Assembly (NCBI GenBank): GCA_003118195.1
Contig: BEXV01000041.1
Span: forward strand, 375,852-439,851
Direction of reading: 5' to 3'
Origin: Hemicentrotus pulcherrimus
Taxonomy: Eukaryota > Echinodermata > Echinoidea > Camarodonta > Strongylocentrotidae
Length of the DNA stretch: 64,000 nucleotides
Shown here: in pieces, positions 247 to 10,310 of the stretch
How the letters are laid out: the number at the start of each line of letters is the position of its first letter
How positions within the stretch are numbered: the stretch's first letter is position 1
The notes under the pieces: generated by a model
What the model saw: only the letters and a program-made list of their open reading frames with translations
The model's database searches: none
Told to the model about the DNA's origin: nothing
Translations under genes and position numbers: made by a program

Positions 247-477
247 ACCAATCATATTCTCGAGGTTCTTCAGTTGGTACAAGCCAAGCGGCCATGGGTT
301 TCTGTTGAGATCAAGTACACTGGAGGCACAAAGAAACAAGTCAACTACTGGCTAAGCAGCCATCGCAGAAGGCGACTACGATGTCGCTGGTCTGAGCAGA
401 TCGGTCAGGGACTAGGGGAAAGAATGGTCCATGCATTTCATGCAGCCTTTGCAAGAAAGAAGCAGAGAGTCATATTG
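247..477 (+). CDS. GT fusion gene, first in-window exon (DUF2064 domain)
   Basis: Opens after a pyrimidine-rich acceptor ending in CTCAG and closes at TTG|GTAAGT, 77 codons, phase 0. It encodes the middle of the DUF2064 domain, including GQGLGERMVHAFHAAFA, the family's Q..G.LGERM segment. The usual N-terminal segment (an ARxPxPGxxKTRL-type motif) is absent, so at least one exon lies before position 1. Confidence 0.8.
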
Positions 478-3400
478 GTAAGTGTGCAGCCATCAAACCT
501 CTTGACCCAAGACCTAATACCTCTTATGTTGCTAAGTTTTTGAACAGAACTTTGTACACAAATATTTTTCATATGTAAAATTTTGACTCGCAATGTATGA
601 TTAAAGTGGGTATAAAATATAACCTGTGAGAAAAAACTTTGCAATGGGGGCTCGTGTTCTGTATAGAGACCATAAACAGCTACTTTTAGTCTTGGTGCAT
701 TGTTAAAAATTATAATTCTTGTGCAGAATTTGCCACCCAATTGGCATGTAAAGGGTTAAGATTTAATTGCCTACCTTGTATATCTTGTTCTGGTAATGAT
801 GGGGTTTACTACTCATTTTACCCAGTTGAGACAGTGATTTTGTTTTATGAGACCCTGTTCACAATCCCTCTTTCCAAGAAAAAGATATTCTAAACATTTT
901 TATTGATAAAACAGTAAGCAAACATTATTGTTACAGATTAATTATATACAAGAATTCATTTCCCCCCAAGTAAACATGATTTCTAGTAAGTTTTCATGAT
1001 TAATGTACTCACTTACTGCATGCTAAACTATTCAGAATTATTTTAAGCTACTTTCTCATCAAGCTCAGGTCTATTAGTAGAACTTCAGATAAACTTTTCA
1101 TCAAAAACTTGTCATATCTGATCCTTTTCAATCCGTCACAGATCGGGAGTGACATCCCAGCAATCGATGCTGATACCATCTGTTCTACCTTTGACAAGTT
1201 GTCCCTTGGATCGTGTAACATGATATTGGGAGCTGCTAAAGATGGGGGCTACTACCTAGTTGGGCTGAGTCAAAATGAGGGAGAAGAAACTATAGATCTT
1301 GGTGAGTAACATTTTATTGTATAACAATGAATTCTTAAAAATTATTTTTCTGTACCATTTTTCAATGTAAGCTGACAATCTACATGCTTGTGCAGTGTGA
1401 ATCCATTTTACAATTCACAATATTTTTAAATTTTCCCAATTTATGGACGATGTTCACTCAGCAAAAATGAAAGAAAGTAGACACTCTTTATTGTTCAGAA
1501 ATGTTATATTAACTATCAATTAAGTATACAGAATTATATATCAAATTTTTAATCACGAATACTCTACCAATATCACTTAAGATCAAGTCTTGAACTTTCT
1601 TGCTTGGATTAATAGGATGGGCACAATCATTTAACAACCAGAAGGTCCCATTAAGAGAATTGAGTGCCTGGGAAATTCAAGATACTCCTCTTTTCAAGTC
1701 AGTTGTAGTGACAACTTTGAGTGCTCTCTTGAGGAAATGGTGCCTGTTTATTTGATTCCAATTGTAACTCTGTATTCCAATACTGTGCTTTACTTTCACT
1801 GTGTTTGTCAGATAAGTATATTTCTTTTATCAGCCATCTTGTATTTTATCTGTTGCCTTCCCTGAGTGCCTGGGAAAGCTTACAAATTAACACATCATTT
1901 GTTTTAAGGGAAATACCATATTCATTTAGTGTCATCTTTCTTGCCCTTAGATCCTCTGTTTACCAGCTCAGATATAGAATGGGGTACAAGTAAAGTTCTA
2001 CAACAGCAAAAGAGAGTAGCACAACAACTGCAACTGAGACTAGAGATACTCCCCAGAATATTGCAAGATGTGGTAAGAAATGCCAGCATATTTTGAAGTG
2101 ATATATTGACTATGACCTGTATAACAATAGTAAATTATGAGTCTCTTGTCAGTTACCTGAATCTAATCTTGTGTGTAGACAGAATATGCTTATGTTTTTA
2201 TACATAGAATATTGCAACATCGTAATAGATCTATAGATATCTTTGTTATTCTAGTTTTGTCTTTAGATTTAAACAACATTTTTTCTTTGTATGACTATTT
2301 TGTAGGATACAGTACAAGATCTAGATGAAATTGAGAGGTCAACAGGGTATACTGTGGAACAAATTCGAGCACCATTCCTTTCCGTTATCATTCCTGTTTT
2401 TAACGAAGGTCTTTTTATACAACAGACACTCCAAAACGTCACAGAGGTTAGTCCATGTAGCATGTTTTATGTATATTTTTTTGGTAAAATACTGATAACG
2501 GTTATGTGAGATAAAGGTCATATATGCCAATAGATGTATGTTTATTCTGAGCAAAGTCTATTTACTTTGTAGTAGTGATTAAGATGGGTGATATGGGCTG
2601 CTTCCTTGTAGTTTTTATACATTTAGGAGGAGGCGGTCTAACAATATTTCCTTTTGATTTATAGATAATAATCTTGTCTTGAACGATCGACTATTAGAAC
2701 AAATTAGTGAATATACAAACAGTTTGTGTAAATATTTTTTATCTGCATGTGCAATTACCGCCAAGTTCATCAATATGCTTATTTGAAAAGAGGAGAAAAC
2801 AGAATACCCTTTGATCAATGTGAAGTTATTAAGATCAGCCAGTGTATGAAAAATGTAAGAAATGTGTATGATTTTTTTCAGTAAAGGTTTCCAAAGGAAA
2901 TTTTTAAAGCTTATTTCATGCATTTGTATAATGTTTGCGATAGTAGGAGGTTTCCTTTATTTTTTTCTTCCATGTACAGGAGTTGAATGATTGAAACTTT
3001 TGAATATGATATACACACTGTTTTGTGATATCTGTCTAGGAATATTATGATTTTCATTAGATCCTGAACATTAAATGACATTGATTTAAAAAAAAAAAAA
3101 CTCAATCGGAGCATATCTCTTTAAACTTGACTAGATGGGACAGTGCGATGGGTTAGGCAGGTAATAAAATGAAGGATATATTAATCTGTTTTTACTCCCT
3201 ATCCATTCAGCGATGTTCTTTTCCAAACTTTATGGAGATCATAATATGTGATGGAGGCAGTGAAGACAACACAAGGGAACTTGTCACAGAATTTGCAAAG
3301 AATAATGAAAGAGTCCCTATAAAACTTGTTACAGGGTTAAAAGGTAAGAAACTTAACGATGATAAAGATTGAAGGAGTCATTCATGTAGGTTGTAACATT

Positions 3401-6400
3401 GATATCAAAGATGTCAAAGCTAATAGTGTAATAGTTCTCAAGTAAATCATCTGCTTAAGATCTTGAAAACAGAATATTACACATAAATTTTCATTCAATC
3501 ATATAAAAGGTTTAACAGATATATTTAGAATATTTCAGATCTATAGATGGAAAGTTGTTTGGTTGATTATGTAAAGCATGTACGAGGATTCGTTGCATCC
3601 AAAGAGAAAGTACAACTAAAAGAGAGTAATTAATGGTCAATGTTAGTGAAAGAGTTAGATAAAATCAAAATGAATTAAGTTTGAAAATTTAAGAACTTCA
3701 AGGTAAACTCTTCTTTCGTTTGTTGCATGTCTACATAATAAAAATCTGTGACAGATAAAGGAAACTTCAGAAAGAAAATCAAATAGTAAATTTGTTCTTT
3801 AATAGATATGAATTTATTTTTGCACTTATTGGTAGAAAGTGAAATGATACGCTTTATTTTCTTTTGTCACTAGGTAGGGGTAGACAACTAAACAAAGGTG
3901 CCATGTATTCCAAAGGAGACAATCTTCTTTTCTTACATGCTGACACCAAGCTACCTCAAGGCTTTGATGCGTCGGTAGTTCTTACACTCTCCACTCCTGG
4001 GGTGAGTGCAGGGGCCTTTAAGTTTGGTCTGGACTTCAATCATTGTTCAGAGTCAGAGAGGTAAGAGCTTGTCATCAGGTTATTGCATTAAATGGGCGAT
4101 GTCATCAAAGTACCGTGTTGATTCTGCAACTCTTTTACTTTTTTGGCACCATGCTTTATTCTTGACAATGCAGTGACCCAAAATACTATTTACTTGATTA
4201 TTGCTGTTTTCCCCATATAAAGAATTGGAATAAAATCATTGAATTTCTTTCTTCTTTTTTTTGTTTTCCTACCTCAAAGTTTAAAAAACACCTATAAGAG
4301 AGAGATTGAAAAACTTGTGAAAAATTGTGCTGCTATTGGTGTTAAGTTTTCTTATGTTTTATATACATGGAGGAAGCTATTGGCTTTGATGTGTATTGTA
4401 GAGTTTTCAAGTAGCACATGATCATTTCATTCTATGTAGCATTGTGTAGCCCATTTGATATTTCTCATTGGAATCATTCATAATTAAAATACTCACATAA
4501 TCTTTTAAGCAAAAAACTAGATATACATTTTGTGTGAAACAGGTATTATTTGTAGCATGTTAAGGCTTGTTCATATGAATAAAAATGTGTCAGGTTTTTA
4601 AAGCATGCACACACAAAAAAAGGAACAAACTCCTGTTGGGAGATCAAATTATGTGATGAATACCTTTCAGCCAGTATTTCTTTTTTAACGGTGTAAGTGA
4701 TGAATTTATTCATATATTATTTTATCTCTGATCTTTACATTGTGCTGAGAATGCTTGGAAGTTCAAGTGTGACAATCACCAACACATGTTTTGCTATTGA
4801 TTTCCATTTCGCTATATTTTATTCAAAATATGGGCTTCAAATATTACTTCTACAAAGAGAAATAGTAGCTTCTGTAGTAGACTATTTGATGCACACATAC
4901 ATTGATCTCATAGAATTTTGGGCGCATGGAACACAAGTCCAACGGGGGTTCTGTGCATAGCCTTTTATATTATTCTTTATTTTCTTCATGCTCCTAAAGT
5001 GTTACCCGATAGAATTCTAGGAAAAAATTTAAGTTGATTTTATACATTCTAGTTACTGGTATACACAAATGTTTATTTCAGGTGATTGATACACTTTAAT
5101 GCAGATATAAGATGGGCTATTCAAATGATTGTATTTTTGCTCAGGTCTGAATTTGGATACTCCAAACTCTTTGCGTTTGAGATGGCGGTGTTGGAATGGG
5201 GAACCAACTGGAGGGCTAGCATCATGGGTATGTAATCCTTTCACTGCTCTTTGATCATTCTTATCACTTTGATATTATAATGCCCATTCTCGCTCACCAC
5301 TTTTGGTAGTTGAGAGGAAATTCTTCTCCCAACACAAAATAAATTTTACTTTTTACCTCTATTTACTTTCATTTTCCTTATTCCTTTCCAAAAGGATTTT
5401 TAACAGCATATCAAGTCTTTGTGCGAATTTCTCTTTATATGAATCTAGTATTTTCAGACACTAGCAAGGATAATTTTAATTGTTAATCTTAGTGCCCCAA
5501 AGTGGCATCAACTTTTTTTCCTCCAATTTCATAAAAATTCAACAGACCCTCCAAATGTAGGATTTCATACGTATCGTTATTGCGGTAGTAGGTTAATCCA
5601 TTCCAAAGTTCATGTTGTTAGAAAAACTTTACAAATGGGATACAATGCTTGAAATACAATGAACCATTTTAATACCTTTATGCAGAGCTTCCATATGGAG
5701 ACCAGGCCTTGTTCATGTCTAGGACCTTATTCAAAAGTGTTGCCATGTTTCCTGATTATTTAATCATGGAAGATTATGAAATGGTATGTATCCTTTTATT
5801 ATTATTATTGTCGATACCACAAGCTAGAATGAATGAGTAGGTGTACATTGTATGATATGATGAATGGAATAGTACAGAACCTTATAGGTGACTCAGTTTG
5901 TTTTATTACAACTCATATTTGGGCAAGTCCAGTGAACTTGGTATATAATCAGATCAATTATCATGTTTTTATGTTATTATGAGATTTTGTTTGACCCAAG
6001 CCCTAGTAAAGCTATTACCTTAATACAAGAATTGATTGTACTAAAATATTTAATGTACTATAGTATACAAATAACGCACGGCTCTGAGTGCATTCACGTT
6101 ACGCACAACAGGGTCAAGTGCGTTATTTGTTTTGTAAAATAGGCTCAGCGCGCGACGTGACACAAATATGACAGATAGGTCTAGATCTAGGTCTAATTAA
6201 GAGTTGGGCTAGACTCTATATCTAGATTCTAGACCTATGCAGGCTTGCTAGGTCTATAATAAATATCTACTTACCAAAATGTTCACGGGATCCCACTTGC
6301 CTTGAGTATATAAAATCCATAGAAAGACACTAAAACAGCTGAAAATGTCCTGAAATTCCTGGCTGCGATCATTATGAAATCCAAAAGTCAAAACAGGCCA

Positions 6401-9288
6401 AAAGTCAAAACAGGCAAAACAACGCATTTACAGATATTTACAGTGGAGTTAGTCCAGGTCTATACAATCAATTATAAATATTAACACTACATCCATGGAA
6501 ATGGAACACCTTCTGTACGCTCTGCTGCTGAATCTGGGAGGAACTAGACTTAAATTCGACAGATGTAGAATTATCGCCGGCGCCGTATGCTACGGTTTCT
6601 TGGCTCGAAGTAATACTGCTGAATGTAGAACTGATGATATTACAAGTAGGCCTAGACGAAGAAGGAACAGTAGAAGTTGAAGGCCTTTCAGCAGTAGTAG
6701 AAGAAGAAGGAGAAGAAGTATTAGACTCGGGTCCAGAGTAGAGATGTTTAGCGATCATGCCACTCATCTCCCTCTTTCTCACGTCGCTGGTCCGACTGTA
6801 GTGACGTAGGCTGGACTCACTTTTGTGTCCGCTTATCGCCATTATATCCCTGCCTTGAATACCCGCACTGTCGAGTGTGTTGATTGTAGTGGCTCTCAAC
6901 GAGTGGTTGGTGTAAGATTTGCTACATCCAACATTACGAGATATTGACTTGAGCTTGTTTCCGATGGTGTTTACTCCAAGTGGGCTGTTACAGTACCAAC
7001 TACTTCCATCCTCAGGAGCTGCTCGTTTGGGCCTCTGCCAGAGCCAGATGCAATTTGCGTTCAATCTGCTGACATAAGTCTGGAATGCTCTCAAGGGACA
7101 TGAAATACTATTCGGAATCTCATACATCCGGCCACTGTTTGACACTTCATCATGCCCTTCTCTGTTATTCTTGGTGAGACAGTCTTTCTTCTTCATGTAA
7201 GAAAGGCCAGTGTCGACGTCTGTCTCAATCGTGAAATCACCTGGCTTCATCTCACGAATGTTCTCCCTACCACGGTTACAGAAAAAGGTCATGATGTCGA
7301 CGAAAACCTTATTTTCTTATTTTGCAACCCTTTCGGTGTTGACATGTCAAGTTCCCCAGAGTTCTGCATTGTTTGCGTGTCCGTTGCGGTGATCATGGGT
7401 TTGTGTTCCACGAAACCCTTTCCTTGTTTCTTCAAACTCACCATTACGGCCTTAAACATGCGATTCGATTGAGGAAATTTCACATTGTCTGTAATATCCC
7501 AGTCGGAATTGTCCATATAATGTCGTTGAACTCTGTATCTAAGAGCCTGCATACTTCTTTTTTTGTAACTTGTCCCATCCTCTTTGCGAATCCCAGCGTA
7601 AAACTTGTTCAGAAAGCAATCAAGATCAGATGGAACGTCCAGTCCGGTCTCTAAATTTGTGTTCGTATAGGCTGCAAATCCTTGTAATTTGTCTCTAGCG
7701 AATTTCAAAGACTTCTTTGTGTTGCGACTATCCATCTGGCCCACCAGGTCAGCGAGTTCTTTGTCCATGGGGACATGAAATGACTTAGTAGTCGCCATTT
7801 TCGACAAACATTCCCAAATAGGCCTAGAAATCTAGATCTACGTAGGTCTAGAACGCTTTCAAATTAAGTTTATGAAAAATTTGTTTTCAAATCTCCCGCG
7901 CTTAAGCGCGCATAATGAAGTACGCGTACGCAGGAGTGTAAGAGCGCGCATTAAATATCCATGGTAATGTGCAATATAACTTTTTGTTGCGCTTTTTCTG
8001 CACTCATTTTGCAAAATCGTGCTTGCATCAAAAATTTCTACATGTCATGTGATGCGTATTGACCAATCACGATGCTTAAAATACTAGAGCCATTTTATAA
8101 TCAGTGATATTTGATAAAATGGGACTTGCCCATTTATAGTTTTATTTTGATAGTGTGGTAGTGGAACTCTATTTTCTCATTGTATGGATATTTTGTCCTT
8201 CAGTATAAAGGCCTTGTGGGATTTTTTTTTATCATTTTCAAAATTATAAGCATTACAAGATATGGCTTAATGAAATGCTAATGCTTTGCTGTAACATGTT
8301 AAGACACACAACAGCAAGATAATCAAGAACAGGTTTATTAATATATAAAGCAGTACAAGATATGGCTAAAATCTTAGTGTTCTGCATTAATATCTCAAAC
8401 ATGAAAGCAATGAAAAATGAAGAGAAAAAACAGGGCCCTGTTTCATAAAACTTGAAATTGATAACAAGGTACGAAGATTGTTGTAAGCTACTGAAATCCT
8501 TCCATTTGTTTGGCTATGAACAGATTAGTCATAGATCTGTGGCAGTTATTATTTTATGAAACAGAGACCAGTTGTTTCAAAGTTTGAAGCATTTTATGAT
8601 GTGGCTAAATGTTAAGTGTTGTGTATTTTCAGGTGTGGAAGCTTCAAGGAGAAGGTCATATACAGATAGTTGAAGGGAAGCAGGCCATCACGTCATCAAG
8701 AAGATGGGCAAAATATGGTTATCTTACAGTAAGTTGGCTATTGATTTGGGTCACATGCAGGGGTTATAATAGGGCTTCACATCGGGGGGCAGATATTTTG
8801 TCAAAGTATAGACCCATTTTTCACAATTTTCGGATGTTCGCCATGTAAACACCCAACATTTTTGGAAACTTTGAATAAACAGACTCATGTTTAGTGATAT
8901 TTTTGTTTAAAATAGGACACATGTTAAGGGATTTTTTTGTGAAAGAGCGACCCGTTAGAGCGGCACATCCCTGTGTGTCTTAATATGTGTGTAATGCTAC
9001 CAAATGAATGATAGGTATTAGAGCAGGAAAAATAGTTAAAATTTGAATATGAGACAGTGAACTGAGAATATAACATGCAGATACTATCCATTTAATTTTG
9101 AATTCATCTTTAATACAGTTTGTCCCTTTGCAAATATGTTCAAGTTATTTATAGCAATGTTCTCAAAATGGTTTTCATTACAGACAGTGATGTGGAACTA
9201 TGTGATCATTATTGCCTACCATATGGGAATCCACCCAAATGCTTTGGCTAGACTCTACTATGGAAGACAGCCTACTCATGCCAACTGA
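247..9288 (+). CDS. Two-domain glycosyltransferase: DUF2064/TIGR04282 domain fused to GT2/TIGR04283 domain (5' partial)
   Basis: Ten exons, all GT-AG and phase-consistent: 247-477, 1142-1301, 1951-2072, 2306-2446, 3211-3343, 3874-4060, 5145-5227, 5686-5783, 8633-8728, 9184-9288 (stop TGA 9286-9288). They give 451 residues; the N-terminus lies upstream of the window. Residues 1 to about 185 match DUF2064/TIGR04282, with LGERMVHAF, IGSDIP and AAKDGGYYLVGL motifs. Residues about 196-451 match a GT2 fold of the TIGR04283 type: LSVIIPVFNEG, CDGGSEDNT, GRGRQLNKGA, the DXD-like LHADTKLP, LPYGDQALF, MEDYEM and a hydrophobic C-terminal stretch. Known: in bacteria both families are separate or fused genes near radical SAM ArsS and are annotated as arsenosugar-biosynthesis glycosyltransferases. 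Inferred: a UDP-sugar-type transferase, cytosolic or membrane-attached; its substrate in an animal is unknown. Introns rule out a simple bacterial contaminant. Confidence 0.88.
1142..1301 (+). CDS. GT fusion gene exon 2 (DUF2064 core)
   Basis: Acceptor GTCACAG, donor CTTG|GTGAGT, 160 nt. Starts with IGSDIPAI (the GSDxP motif) and carries AAKDGGYYLVGL, the most diagnostic DUF2064 signature. Ends in phase 1. Confidence 0.88.
1951..2072 (+). CDS. GT fusion gene exon 3 (end of DUF2064 domain)
   Basis: Acceptor TTGCCCTTAG, donor GATGTG|GTAAGA. Encodes DPLFTSSDIEWGTSKVL and a Gln/Leu-rich helix ending RILQDV, matching the family's LF..I.W.T..VL region before its D.D...D close. Confidence 0.85.
2306..2446 (+). 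CDS. GT fusion gene exon 4 (domain junction)
   Basis: Acceptor TTTTGTAG, donor ACAGAG|GTTAGT, 47 codons, phase 0. Completes the first domain with DTVQDLDEIE, then a linker of about 10 residues, then the first strand of the GT2 fold, LSVIIPVFNEG. Both domains share this exon, so the fusion is real at the gene level. Confidence 0.88.
3211..3343 (+). CDS. GT fusion gene exon 5 (GT2 nucleotide-binding strand)
   Basis: Acceptor TCCATTCAG, donor AAAAG|GTAAGA. Encodes MEIIICDGGSEDNTREL, the GT2 second strand with its D-G-S-x-D-x-T motif, and ends in phase 1 within the GRGRQLN loop. Confidence 0.88.
3874..4060 (+). CDS. GT fusion gene exon 6 (catalytic core, LHADT)
   Basis: Acceptor TGTCACTAG, donor GAGAG|GTAAGA, 187 nt. 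Encodes GRGRQLNKGA (finished from exon 5) and LLFLHADTKLP, where HAD takes the place of the metal-binding DXD of GT2 enzymes, followed by GAFKFGLDF. These are the strongest TIGR04283-type signatures. Confidence 0.92.
5145..5227 (+). CDS. GT fusion gene exon 7
   Basis: Acceptor TTGCTCAG, donor CATGG|GTATGT, 83 nt. Encodes SEFGYSKLFAFEMAVLEWGT, a helical and partly hydrophobic segment between the LHADT and GDQ motifs. Phase agrees with both neighbours. Confidence 0.8.
5686..5783 (+). CDS. GT fusion gene exon 8 (PYGDQ / ED motif)
   Basis: Acceptor TTATGCAG, donor AAATG|GTATGT. Encodes ELPYGDQALFMSR and YLIMEDYEM. In TIGR04283-like GT2 proteins these are the acceptor-side GDQ loop and the ED catalytic-base motif. 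Confidence 0.9.
6067..6130. repeat. 13-bp inverted repeat at the 3' side of the Crypton-like element
   Basis: ACAAATAACGCAC at 6067-6079 is repeated exactly inverted as GTGCGTTATTTGT at 6118-6130, with a 38-bp centre. It lies just past the recombinase 3' end. It could be a recombinase binding site or a chance hairpin. Confidence 0.55.
6468..7807 (-). pseudogene. Crypton-type tyrosine recombinase (DUF3504-like), frameshifted
   Basis: Two overlapping reading frames, 7807-7289 and 7292-6468, make up one protein. The first has the DNA-binding-like N-terminal half: FARDKLQGFAAY, a short GTSYKKRSMQALRYRVQRH block, and DITDNVKFPQSNRMFKAV. The second has the catalytic half: GRENIREM (first Arg), HSLRATTIN (HxxR), GHKSESSLRHYSR (His and the nucleophile Tyr), then a Ser/Thr-rich tail. 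The frames separate at an exact 8-bp tandem duplication (7308-7315 and 7316-7323), so the present copy is broken although the visible catalytic residues remain. Domain assignment is from family knowledge of KIAA1958/ZMYM-like Crypton recombinases. Start choice between Met at 7807 and at 7798 is open. Confidence 0.82.
8434..8570. repeat. Short MITE-like inverted-repeat element
   Basis: CCTGTTTCATAAAA at 8437-8450 is mirrored by TTTTATGAAACAG at 8552-8564, bounding about 137 bp of non-coding sequence in the intron just upstream of GT exon 9. A similar internal sequence around 30030-30100 may be a decayed relative. Confidence 0.55.
8633..8728 (+). CDS. GT fusion gene exon 9
   Basis: Acceptor GTATTTTCAG, donor TTACA|GTAAGT, 32 codons, phase 0. 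Encodes a basic segment with AITSSRRWAKYGYLT, the typical post-ED region of GT2 proteins of this type (S.RRW...G). Confidence 0.88.
9184..9288 (+). CDS. GT fusion gene last coding exon
   Basis: Acceptor TCATTACAG. Encodes TVMWNYVIIIAYHMGIHPNA, a hydrophobic segment that could be one membrane helix or re-entrant stretch, then LARLYYGRQPTHAN and TGA at 9286-9288. TIGR04283 proteins end the same way, with N....A...G..P..LA.LY. Confidence 0.9.
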   Translation, partial: TVMWNYVIIIAYHMGIHPNALARLYYGRQPTHAN

Positions 9289-10310
9289 AATCATCATCGT
9301 CATCATCATCGTCATCATCATCGTCATCATCATCATCGTCATTACCAGCATCATCACCACCGTCATGTCTGCAACTCTGCATCCTATGTGTGTACAGGAG
9401 CAAGAGACAAGGACTATAAGAGGAGGTCCTATATGTTCGATTCTGTGAAGCATGGTGGAAGTAACGAAAGGTGTGCTATGGATACAAATTATGGATAGAG
9501 CTATAGTTGATTGATTTAATGTGACAAAATTGATGAGATAGTTGAAGAAATGAAAATAATTATTTATTTTTTGATTTTGATACGACAGCTGGAATATTTG
9601 GTTATGGATTTGAGGAAATTATGTTTGTAGGTTACGTTATATGCAAACTATTCAAATTTATCTTGATTTATTTGTTCATTTACTCATTCATTTCCAAATT
9701 ATTCACTCTTGCACGAATAATGATATGAAACACTTATTTATCATTTTTTGTTTTGTTTTATTAAATGATATGATCTACTCAACTTTTCATTAAGTCAATT
9801 TTGACACACAAATGTACAAAGGTATTGTACCAGCAACTCATGGTAATATTGTTAACTTTCTTATTGTTGCATTTGAAATTTGTGTATATTTTCATACTTT
9901 TCAGATGACATGAATATTAAATCCTAAATAAGTTTTTAAAAGTTAATATACTTAAACTATGTTTATCTTTTATGCTAGGCGTCATGTATAATGTTTATGT
10001 TACATTCTATATATGCCTATGGGTGTTAAACACACTACAAATGTATGAGCACATGCTCATTCTAGAGTCAGTATTTCAAAAATACATATAAATGAATTAA
10101 TGAAATATATATATAATGTAAGTATCTTTTGGAGCAGAAATTCCAAGTGTGCTGATTGATCATGTTGCAATGATTATTTATTAAGAATTTATCCGTAGTT
10201 GATTCAATTATACCCTGTCTACAAAAATAATTAATTTGATTTAAGTTTGTTTTTAGTATACTTTTTAGCATGTTTCTATTGGTTATAATAAATTTATCCG
10301 GTTGAAGAAA
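9289..10310 (+). other. Probable 3' UTR and downstream flank of the GT gene
   Basis: No coding signal. A CATCATCGT-type repeat (9291-9365) starts right after the stop codon. Possible poly(A) signals on this strand are ATTAAA at 9916-9921 and AATAAA at 10287-10292. Which one is used cannot be decided from sequence. Confidence 0.4.
9291..9365. repeat. ATC/GTC trinucleotide repeat
   Basis: About 75 bp of imperfect CATCATCGT units immediately 3' of the stop codon at 9286. Both strands read as low-complexity open frames, which explains the short spurious ORFs here. A similar tract lies at 43148-43204. Confidence 0.85.

Follow-up and report, generated by a model that had tools for sequence, protein, structure and literature searches.

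Arsenosugar formation is usually regarded as belonging to algae and microbes. A gene near the start of a 64,000-nucleotide window from the sea urchin Hemicentrotus pulcherrimus (contig BEXV01000041.1, positions 375,852 to 439,851) raises the question whether a marine animal can carry out this chemistry itself. The original prediction held that the gene fuses two bacterial-type transferase domains named after arsenosugar biosynthesis into one polypeptide; were the host a marine animal, which a sea urchin is, an enzyme of its own acting on arsenosugar-like compounds would be unexpected. The source of the organic arsenic in seafood is still described as an open question in the literature cited in part below. 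If marine invertebrates make arsenosugars, the usual view needs revision, and the question becomes testable through two named genes in sea urchins.

The gene was rebuilt from splice sites and reading frame as ten exons separated by nine GT-AG introns (window 247-9288, forward strand; Table 1). The joined frame contains a single stop, at its end, while the other two frames contain 22 and 30; the product is 451 aa in one open frame, in agreement with the single spliced gene of nine introns and 451 residues that had been proposed. The 5' end is missing. Contig positions 357853-375851, which adjoin the window upstream and make up 18 of the 20 kb examined there, read N, and comparison with a full-length relative (P0001, 521 aa, 96% identical) puts the absent N-terminal part at an estimated ~70 residues. 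The domain limits, at residues 177 and 196, both fall within exon 4, which thus spans the domain junction as predicted. The FLHADT sequence of exon 6 is presumably a DXD-type motif.

Table 1. Exons of the fusion gene, in window coordinates
Feature	Position	Strand	Content	Basis
Exon 1 (in window)	247..477	+	residues 1-77; DUF2064 domain, 5' side truncated	frame, splice sites, TIGR04282 match from residue 16
Exon 2	1142..1301	+	DUF2064 core; motifs IGSDIP and AAKDGGYYLVGL	
Exon 3	1951..2072	+	C-terminal part of DUF2064	
Exon 4	2306..2446	+	residues 172-218; junction of the two domains, then the first part of GT2	
Exon 5	3211..3343	+	GT2 domain; motif CDGGS	
Exon 6	3874..4060	+	GT2 domain; motif FLHADT	
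Exon 7	5145..5227	+	GT2 domain	
Exon 8	5686..5783	+	GT2 domain; motifs LPYGDQALF and IMEDYEM	
Exon 9	8633..8728	+	GT2 domain; motif SSRRW	
Exon 10	9184..9288	+	C-terminus, stop codon included	

The protein carries a DUF2064/TIGR04282 domain followed by a GT2/TIGR04283 domain, and both family assignments are supported, the one to TIGR04282 by way of a full-length relative. The window copy scores 194.6 bits with the NCBIfam model TIGR04283 (cut-off 182; residues 196-442, profile 1-221 of 221). With TIGR04282 it scores 110.4 bits against a cut-off of 134 (residues 16-177, profile 45-189 of 189); this shortfall is attributed to the 5' truncation, because the full-length P0001 passes with both models (159.2 bits for TIGR04282 and 197.1 for TIGR04283). 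The Pfam models DUF2064 (77.9 bits) and Glycos_transf_2 (71.5 bits) also exceed their cut-offs. All other NCBIfam GT2 models reach at most 53.2 bits, far below their own cut-offs, so that unrelated GT2 families are not favored. The protein falls outside the CofC family (TIGR03552, 20.1 bits, far below the cut-off of 105). CofC-type nucleotidyltransferases, 2i5e and 7p97 (3-phospho-D-glycerate guanylyltransferase), nevertheless count among the nearest known systems. So does a solved DUF2064-type structure, 3cgx from Desulfovibrio desulfuricans, a stand-alone protein, unlike the urchin fusion, that is labelled only a putative nucleotide-diphospho-sugar transferase. A search of the urchin genome with the TIGR04283 profile matched only exons 6 and 8 of the fusion gene.

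In bacteria the two transferase families accompany ArsS (TIGR04167, arsenosugar biosynthesis radical SAM (seleno)protein), an enzyme that adenosylates arsenic, as established in bacteria according to the literature cited in part. The suggested check for an ArsS-like gene in the same genome gave a positive answer: joined exons on another contig (C422) score 348.1 bits, above the equivalog cut-off of 300. The gene differs from its bacterial counterparts in being eukaryotic and spliced, with at least six exons, each below the cut-off on its own. The product carries CxxxCxxC, LDLTGGAPEL and the C-terminal HCFGCTAGSGSSCQG. ArsS and the fusion gene are both named in at least 22 animal species among the best 120 matches. 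Within the same matches, 11 of the 33 animals with the fusion lack a named ArsS and seven of the 29 species with ArsS lack a named fusion, absences that lists of this size test weakly. The presence of both genes in one animal genome means that some marine invertebrates may build arsenosugars themselves, not only eat them.

Probably the fusion gene encodes a bifunctional enzyme of an animal arsenosugar pathway that works with the ArsS encoded elsewhere in the genome. On the best reading its product would be anchored in the membrane, combine nucleotidyltransferase and glycosyltransferase functions, and follow ArsS in an inherited pathway. ArsS would adenosylate dimethylated arsenic supplied by AS3MT or the diet, and a nucleoside phosphorylase would free adenine to leave dimethylarsinoyl-ribose-1-phosphate. 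The DUF2064 domain, with its predicted CofC-like nucleotidyltransferase fold, would activate this compound with a nucleotide, and the C-terminal domain, a predicted GT-A glycosyltransferase, would pass the activated group to glycerol or a glycerol lipid. Anchoring would be provided by an N-terminal helix present in full-length relatives: most of those from animals start with a hydrophobic stretch (modelled as a helix at residues 4-32 in P0001), which by eye is absent from seven of the eight bacterial rows of alignment A1. Three results weigh against this main reading: the search for ArsM/AS3MT described below found none in the urchin assembly, the two genes sit on separate contigs in the urchin, and the literature search brought up no assay of either transferase family.

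A different reading, which we consider unlikely, is one of salvage: the enzymes would recover or modify arsenic nucleosides and arsenosugars obtained from food or symbionts, with no synthesis from inorganic arsenic. Many of the named holders of the genes are algal grazers or plankton filterers, which counts in its favor. So does the outcome of the other suggested check, for an ArsM-like gene: ArsM/AS3MT was not found in the urchin assembly with three family models (NF008823, NF040538 and NF038099) and one motif in an exon-wise search of a gapped assembly that makes for a weak test. NF040538, NF038099 and the motif gave zero matches, and the single NF008823 match (40.8 bits) reads as a generic methyltransferase. 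A TIGR04169 match of 30.1 bits (cut-off 120) lies in a frame that appears AhpD/CMD-like and was not counted as a member. Against salvage stands ArsS, which itself adenosylates arsenic: salvage by itself gives little reason to retain such an enzyme. Moreover, Strongylocentrotus purpuratus appears in the numbered species list of a 2017 AS3MT paper.

That ArsS and the fusion protein might use another substrate in animals, such as a different nucleotide sugar or metalloid, so that the arsenic name would not be transferable, seems improbable. The arsenic label of TIGR04282 and TIGR04283 is a family name, and the link is drawn from that NCBIfam naming together with co-occurrence with ArsS, the latter for TIGR04283 only. 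In cyanobacteria all 82 ArsS-bearing genomes also have TIGR04283, which occurs in 85 of 194 genomes (raw counts of genomes sharing ancestry, with TIGR04283 counted alone, fused or unfused); it lies within an open frame of at least 400 aa in only nine of the 85. A non-cyanobacterial set gave an ArsS match in only seven of 14 genomes, several of them fragmentary. The bacterial and cyanobacterial TIGR04282-TIGR04283 fusions, some named 'rSAM/selenodomain-associated transferase 2 / 1', have the same domains in the same order and a common set of invariant motifs, but presumed bacterial fusions are only 34-39% identical to the urchin protein across most of its length. Speaking for arsenic, ArsS scores 348-412 bits in the five animal sequences scanned, all above the equivalog cut-off, and the two genes accompany each other in the species counted above. 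The literature search, with most subscription journals outside it, turned up no assay of TIGR04282 or TIGR04283 and no paper whose title deals with animal ArsS or with these two families in animals (background literature, cited in part: PMC3473315, PMC7539508, PMC13188914, PMC5398495, PMC5552862, PMC12608789, PMC4284695, PMC8552651, PMC12159101, PMC9312934). New here are the ArsS gene of the urchin, the species with both genes, and the cyanobacterial co-occurrence count.

Named homologues of the fusion protein were found in at least 33 invertebrate animals (32 species and one hybrid) among the best 120 matches. The tree included 34 of the listed unnamed presumed bacterial matches and left out the named animal rows P0012, P0013, P0015 and P0035, which are isoforms or nearly identical copies, as well as P0245 (Patella vulgata; without DUF2064 in precomputed domains); P0001 and P0020 were counted as animal by similarity. 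It separates the animals, together with two unidentified rows, from the presumed bacterial fusions of the same kind with full support and is broadly in line with animal phylogeny, which fits vertical inheritance of the animal gene. Bacterial contamination or recent transfer, which the shared domain order might suggest, is contradicted by this tree and the spread of homologues, and by the introns that split both the fusion gene, unlike its bacterial counterparts, and ArsS; it was rejected on introns and tree as having scarcely any probability. An ordinary animal glycosyltransferase, as the GT2 fold of the C-domain and the 'DPM1' label on two Branchiostoma lanceolatum entries might imply, is equally far-fetched given the TIGR04283 and other GT2 scores, and the non-animal proteins retrieved are fusions of the TIGR04282-04283 type.

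The animal ArsS proteins have a further feature. Among the matches listed (P0133 and P0204 were left out of the row set), 20 of the 30 named animal entries stop exactly at the position that may hold selenocysteine in bacterial ArsS (GxxU), and animal ArsS may thus be an unrecognized selenoprotein. A search of the main text of a 2012 metazoan survey for words starting with 'arsen' returned none. We give an even chance to a broader scheme, in which an endogenous pathway of ArsS and the fused nucleotidyltransferase-glycosyltransferase in many invertebrates would descend from at least the bilaterian ancestor and be lost or unseen in vertebrates and insects, and ArsS would carry selenocysteine in a C-terminal GSSU in most lineages outside the echinoderms. 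If this is true, a single animal enzyme would link arsenic metabolism with that of selenium, and the animal selenoproteome would gain an extra family. Cysteine takes the place of selenocysteine in the seven named echinoderm entries whose sequence extends to the C-terminus, as it does in the urchin copy.

The fusion gene consists of ten exons joined through nine GT-AG introns into a single 451-residue open frame with a terminal stop, as the original prediction of one spliced gene for both domains had it; exon 4, as also predicted, carries the domain junction. GC content is 43.5% in exons versus 34.2% in introns. The window begins inside the gene, directly downstream of an 18-kb N run (an assembly gap or withheld sequence), and the encoded protein consists of DUF2064/TIGR04282, with its first part absent, and, C-terminal to it, a complete TIGR04283 GT2 domain. 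The predicted family membership was supported directly for TIGR04283, which scored above the curated NCBIfam cut-off. TIGR04282 fell below its cut-off in the 5'-incomplete window copy, from which profile positions 1-44 are absent, but P0001, a full-length relative 96% identical to the window protein, exceeds both cut-offs. P0001 is a 521-aa frame whose longest listed contig is 1747 bases; since the last 451 codons alone take up 9 kb in the window, a sequence of this length could not hold the unspliced gene, and P0001 is probably the product of a spliced transcript from a close relative.

Coordinates of the fusion gene, the urchin ArsS matches and accompanying features
Feature	Location	Strand	Remark
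Fusion gene	window 247-9288	+	
Recombinase-like element	window 6468-7831	-	two overlapping open frames within intron 8, resembling a tyrosine-recombinase element
Trinucleotide repeat	window 9289-9360		long ATC-type run immediately 3' of the fusion gene stop codon
ArsS (TIGR04167) matches	C422:19450-27897	-	six, exon-sized, on one contig
L097	G000:C967:25427-25567		urchin open frame with weak TIGR04169 similarity

The first intron-8 frame resembles Phage_integrase, at 26.2 bits where the cut-off is 27.1, and DUF3504, at 22.5 where it is 29.7, and so falls short of both; such matches are also a feature of Crypton-type transposons. This element may account for the 2.8-kb length and raised GC of intron 8.

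Among the matches listed, the closest named relatives of the fusion protein are from Lytechinus variegatus (86%) and then Diadema (74%). Together with the ArsS similarity given below, this identifies the host as a sea urchin, probably close to Strongylocentrotus. Homologues are named in at least 33 animals (32 species and one Branchiostoma hybrid), each list holding the best 120 of several thousand matches. The holders include echinoderms (sea urchins, crinoids, sea stars, one brittle star, one sea cucumber), hemichordates and amphioxus, and among protostomes molluscs, nemerteans, one brachiopod, one annelid (Owenia) and one priapulid; the Patella vulgata homologue has no DUF2064 among its precomputed domains. 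In a quick tree of 71 rows, the 35 animal rows are grouped apart from 34 presumed bacterial, mostly unnamed TIGR04282-04283 fusions (SH-aLRT 100); two unidentified rows, P0034 and P0036, fall on the animal side. Sea stars, crinoids, sea urchins, hemichordates and amphioxus form separate groups and molluscs join other protostomes, with several forks unresolved. This pattern fits a single old entry from bacteria followed by vertical descent.

The search for ArsS- and ArsM-like genes in the same genome was positive for ArsS, the arsenosugar biosynthesis radical SAM (seleno)protein. On C422, another contig of the assembly, the matches account for TIGR04167 profile positions 2-193 plus 212-302 (E 0.06 for the weakest); their translation includes CNQACNHC as radical-SAM motif, LDLTGGAPEL, which is encoded across a splice site, and HCFGCTAGSGSSCQGATV at the C-terminus. 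One short exon is missing, and an assembly stretch of N and poly-G adjoins. The joined exons (310 residues) reach 348.1 bits, where the cut-off is 300; over 55% of the query, a Strongylocentrotus purpuratus entry shares 96% identity with this ArsS. ArsM/AS3MT was not found in the urchin assembly using three family models and one motif; S. purpuratus stands in the numbered species list of a 2017 AS3MT paper. L097 scores 30.1 bits (cut-off 120) with TIGR04169, an arsenosugar-associated peroxidase-like family.

Among the matches listed, at least 30 animal ArsS entries are named, representing 29 species, among them the calcareous sponge Sycon and the copepod Oithona, and at least 22 animal species have both ArsS and the fusion protein. 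Vertebrates, insects, nematodes and tunicates are not named among the listed ArsS or fusion matches, a weak indication that they lack these genes. In a 64-row ArsS tree, a branch with support 88 separates the 29 animal rows from the others; cryptophyte and other algal rows adjoin the animals, and the 12 bacterial rows lie outside, several with long branches. Searches of an open-licence collection of literature found no titles on ArsS or TIGR04282/04283 transferases in animals; such papers may exist.

Eighty prokaryotic TIGR04283 loci were sampled, of which 39 are non-cyanobacterial according to their record titles; many have flanks that end at contig edges and shorten the view of neighbours. 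Twelve of the 80, all non-cyanobacterial, have ArsS no more than 8 kb away. For four recurrent neighbour clusters, one representative was scored against NCBIfam: an ArsM-like methyltransferase (7/80; highest-scoring model under its cut-off), a TIGR04169 protein (5/80; above cut-off), an FAD oxidoreductase of the MerA/lipoamide-dehydrogenase group (30/80; every model below cut-off) and a membrane protein without NCBIfam match (25/80), which we take to be TVP38/TMEM64-like. The last two are possible further pathway partners. From the 68 loci without adjacent ArsS, 34 genomes were examined; 25 have an ArsS match (24 above cut-off), namely 18 of 20 cyanobacterial versus 7 of 14 others. In an even sample of 194 cyanobacterial genomes, counting TIGR04283 fused or stand-alone, ArsS occurs in 82, TIGR04283 in 85 (84 above cut-off) and both in 82 (Fisher p 7e-52, kinship ignored); none has ArsS without TIGR04283. 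TIGR04283 lies in an open frame of at least 400 aa in 9 of the 85. Among 14 named control genomes, 13 carry neither ArsS nor TIGR04283; the exception, Synechococcus elongatus, carries the pair.

The Sec motif of TIGR04167 is GxxU in a table of a 2026 review. Six of the 12 bacterial ArsS frames from TIGR04283 loci end at the equivalent of the animal GSS, and in all six the next codon is TGA, then QG or GG; the other six have Cys there. One in-frame TGA is present in 5 of the 25 ArsS matches from the 34 genomes. Twenty of 30 named animal ArsS entries end exactly at GSS, one residue short of the Cys position, and P0204 ends earlier. Among the best 120 ArsS relatives (P0121-P0240), 46 end exactly at the bacterial selenocysteine position. 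Judged from sequence, animal and algal ArsS with such ends are candidate selenoproteins annotated as stopping at UGA, and ArsS is possibly an animal selenoprotein. A term search did not find "arsen" in the main texts of papers on the metazoan (2012) and algal (2020) selenoproteomes. Cys occupies this C-terminal position in seven entries from echinoderms and two from Priapulus, and as TGC in the urchin ArsS.
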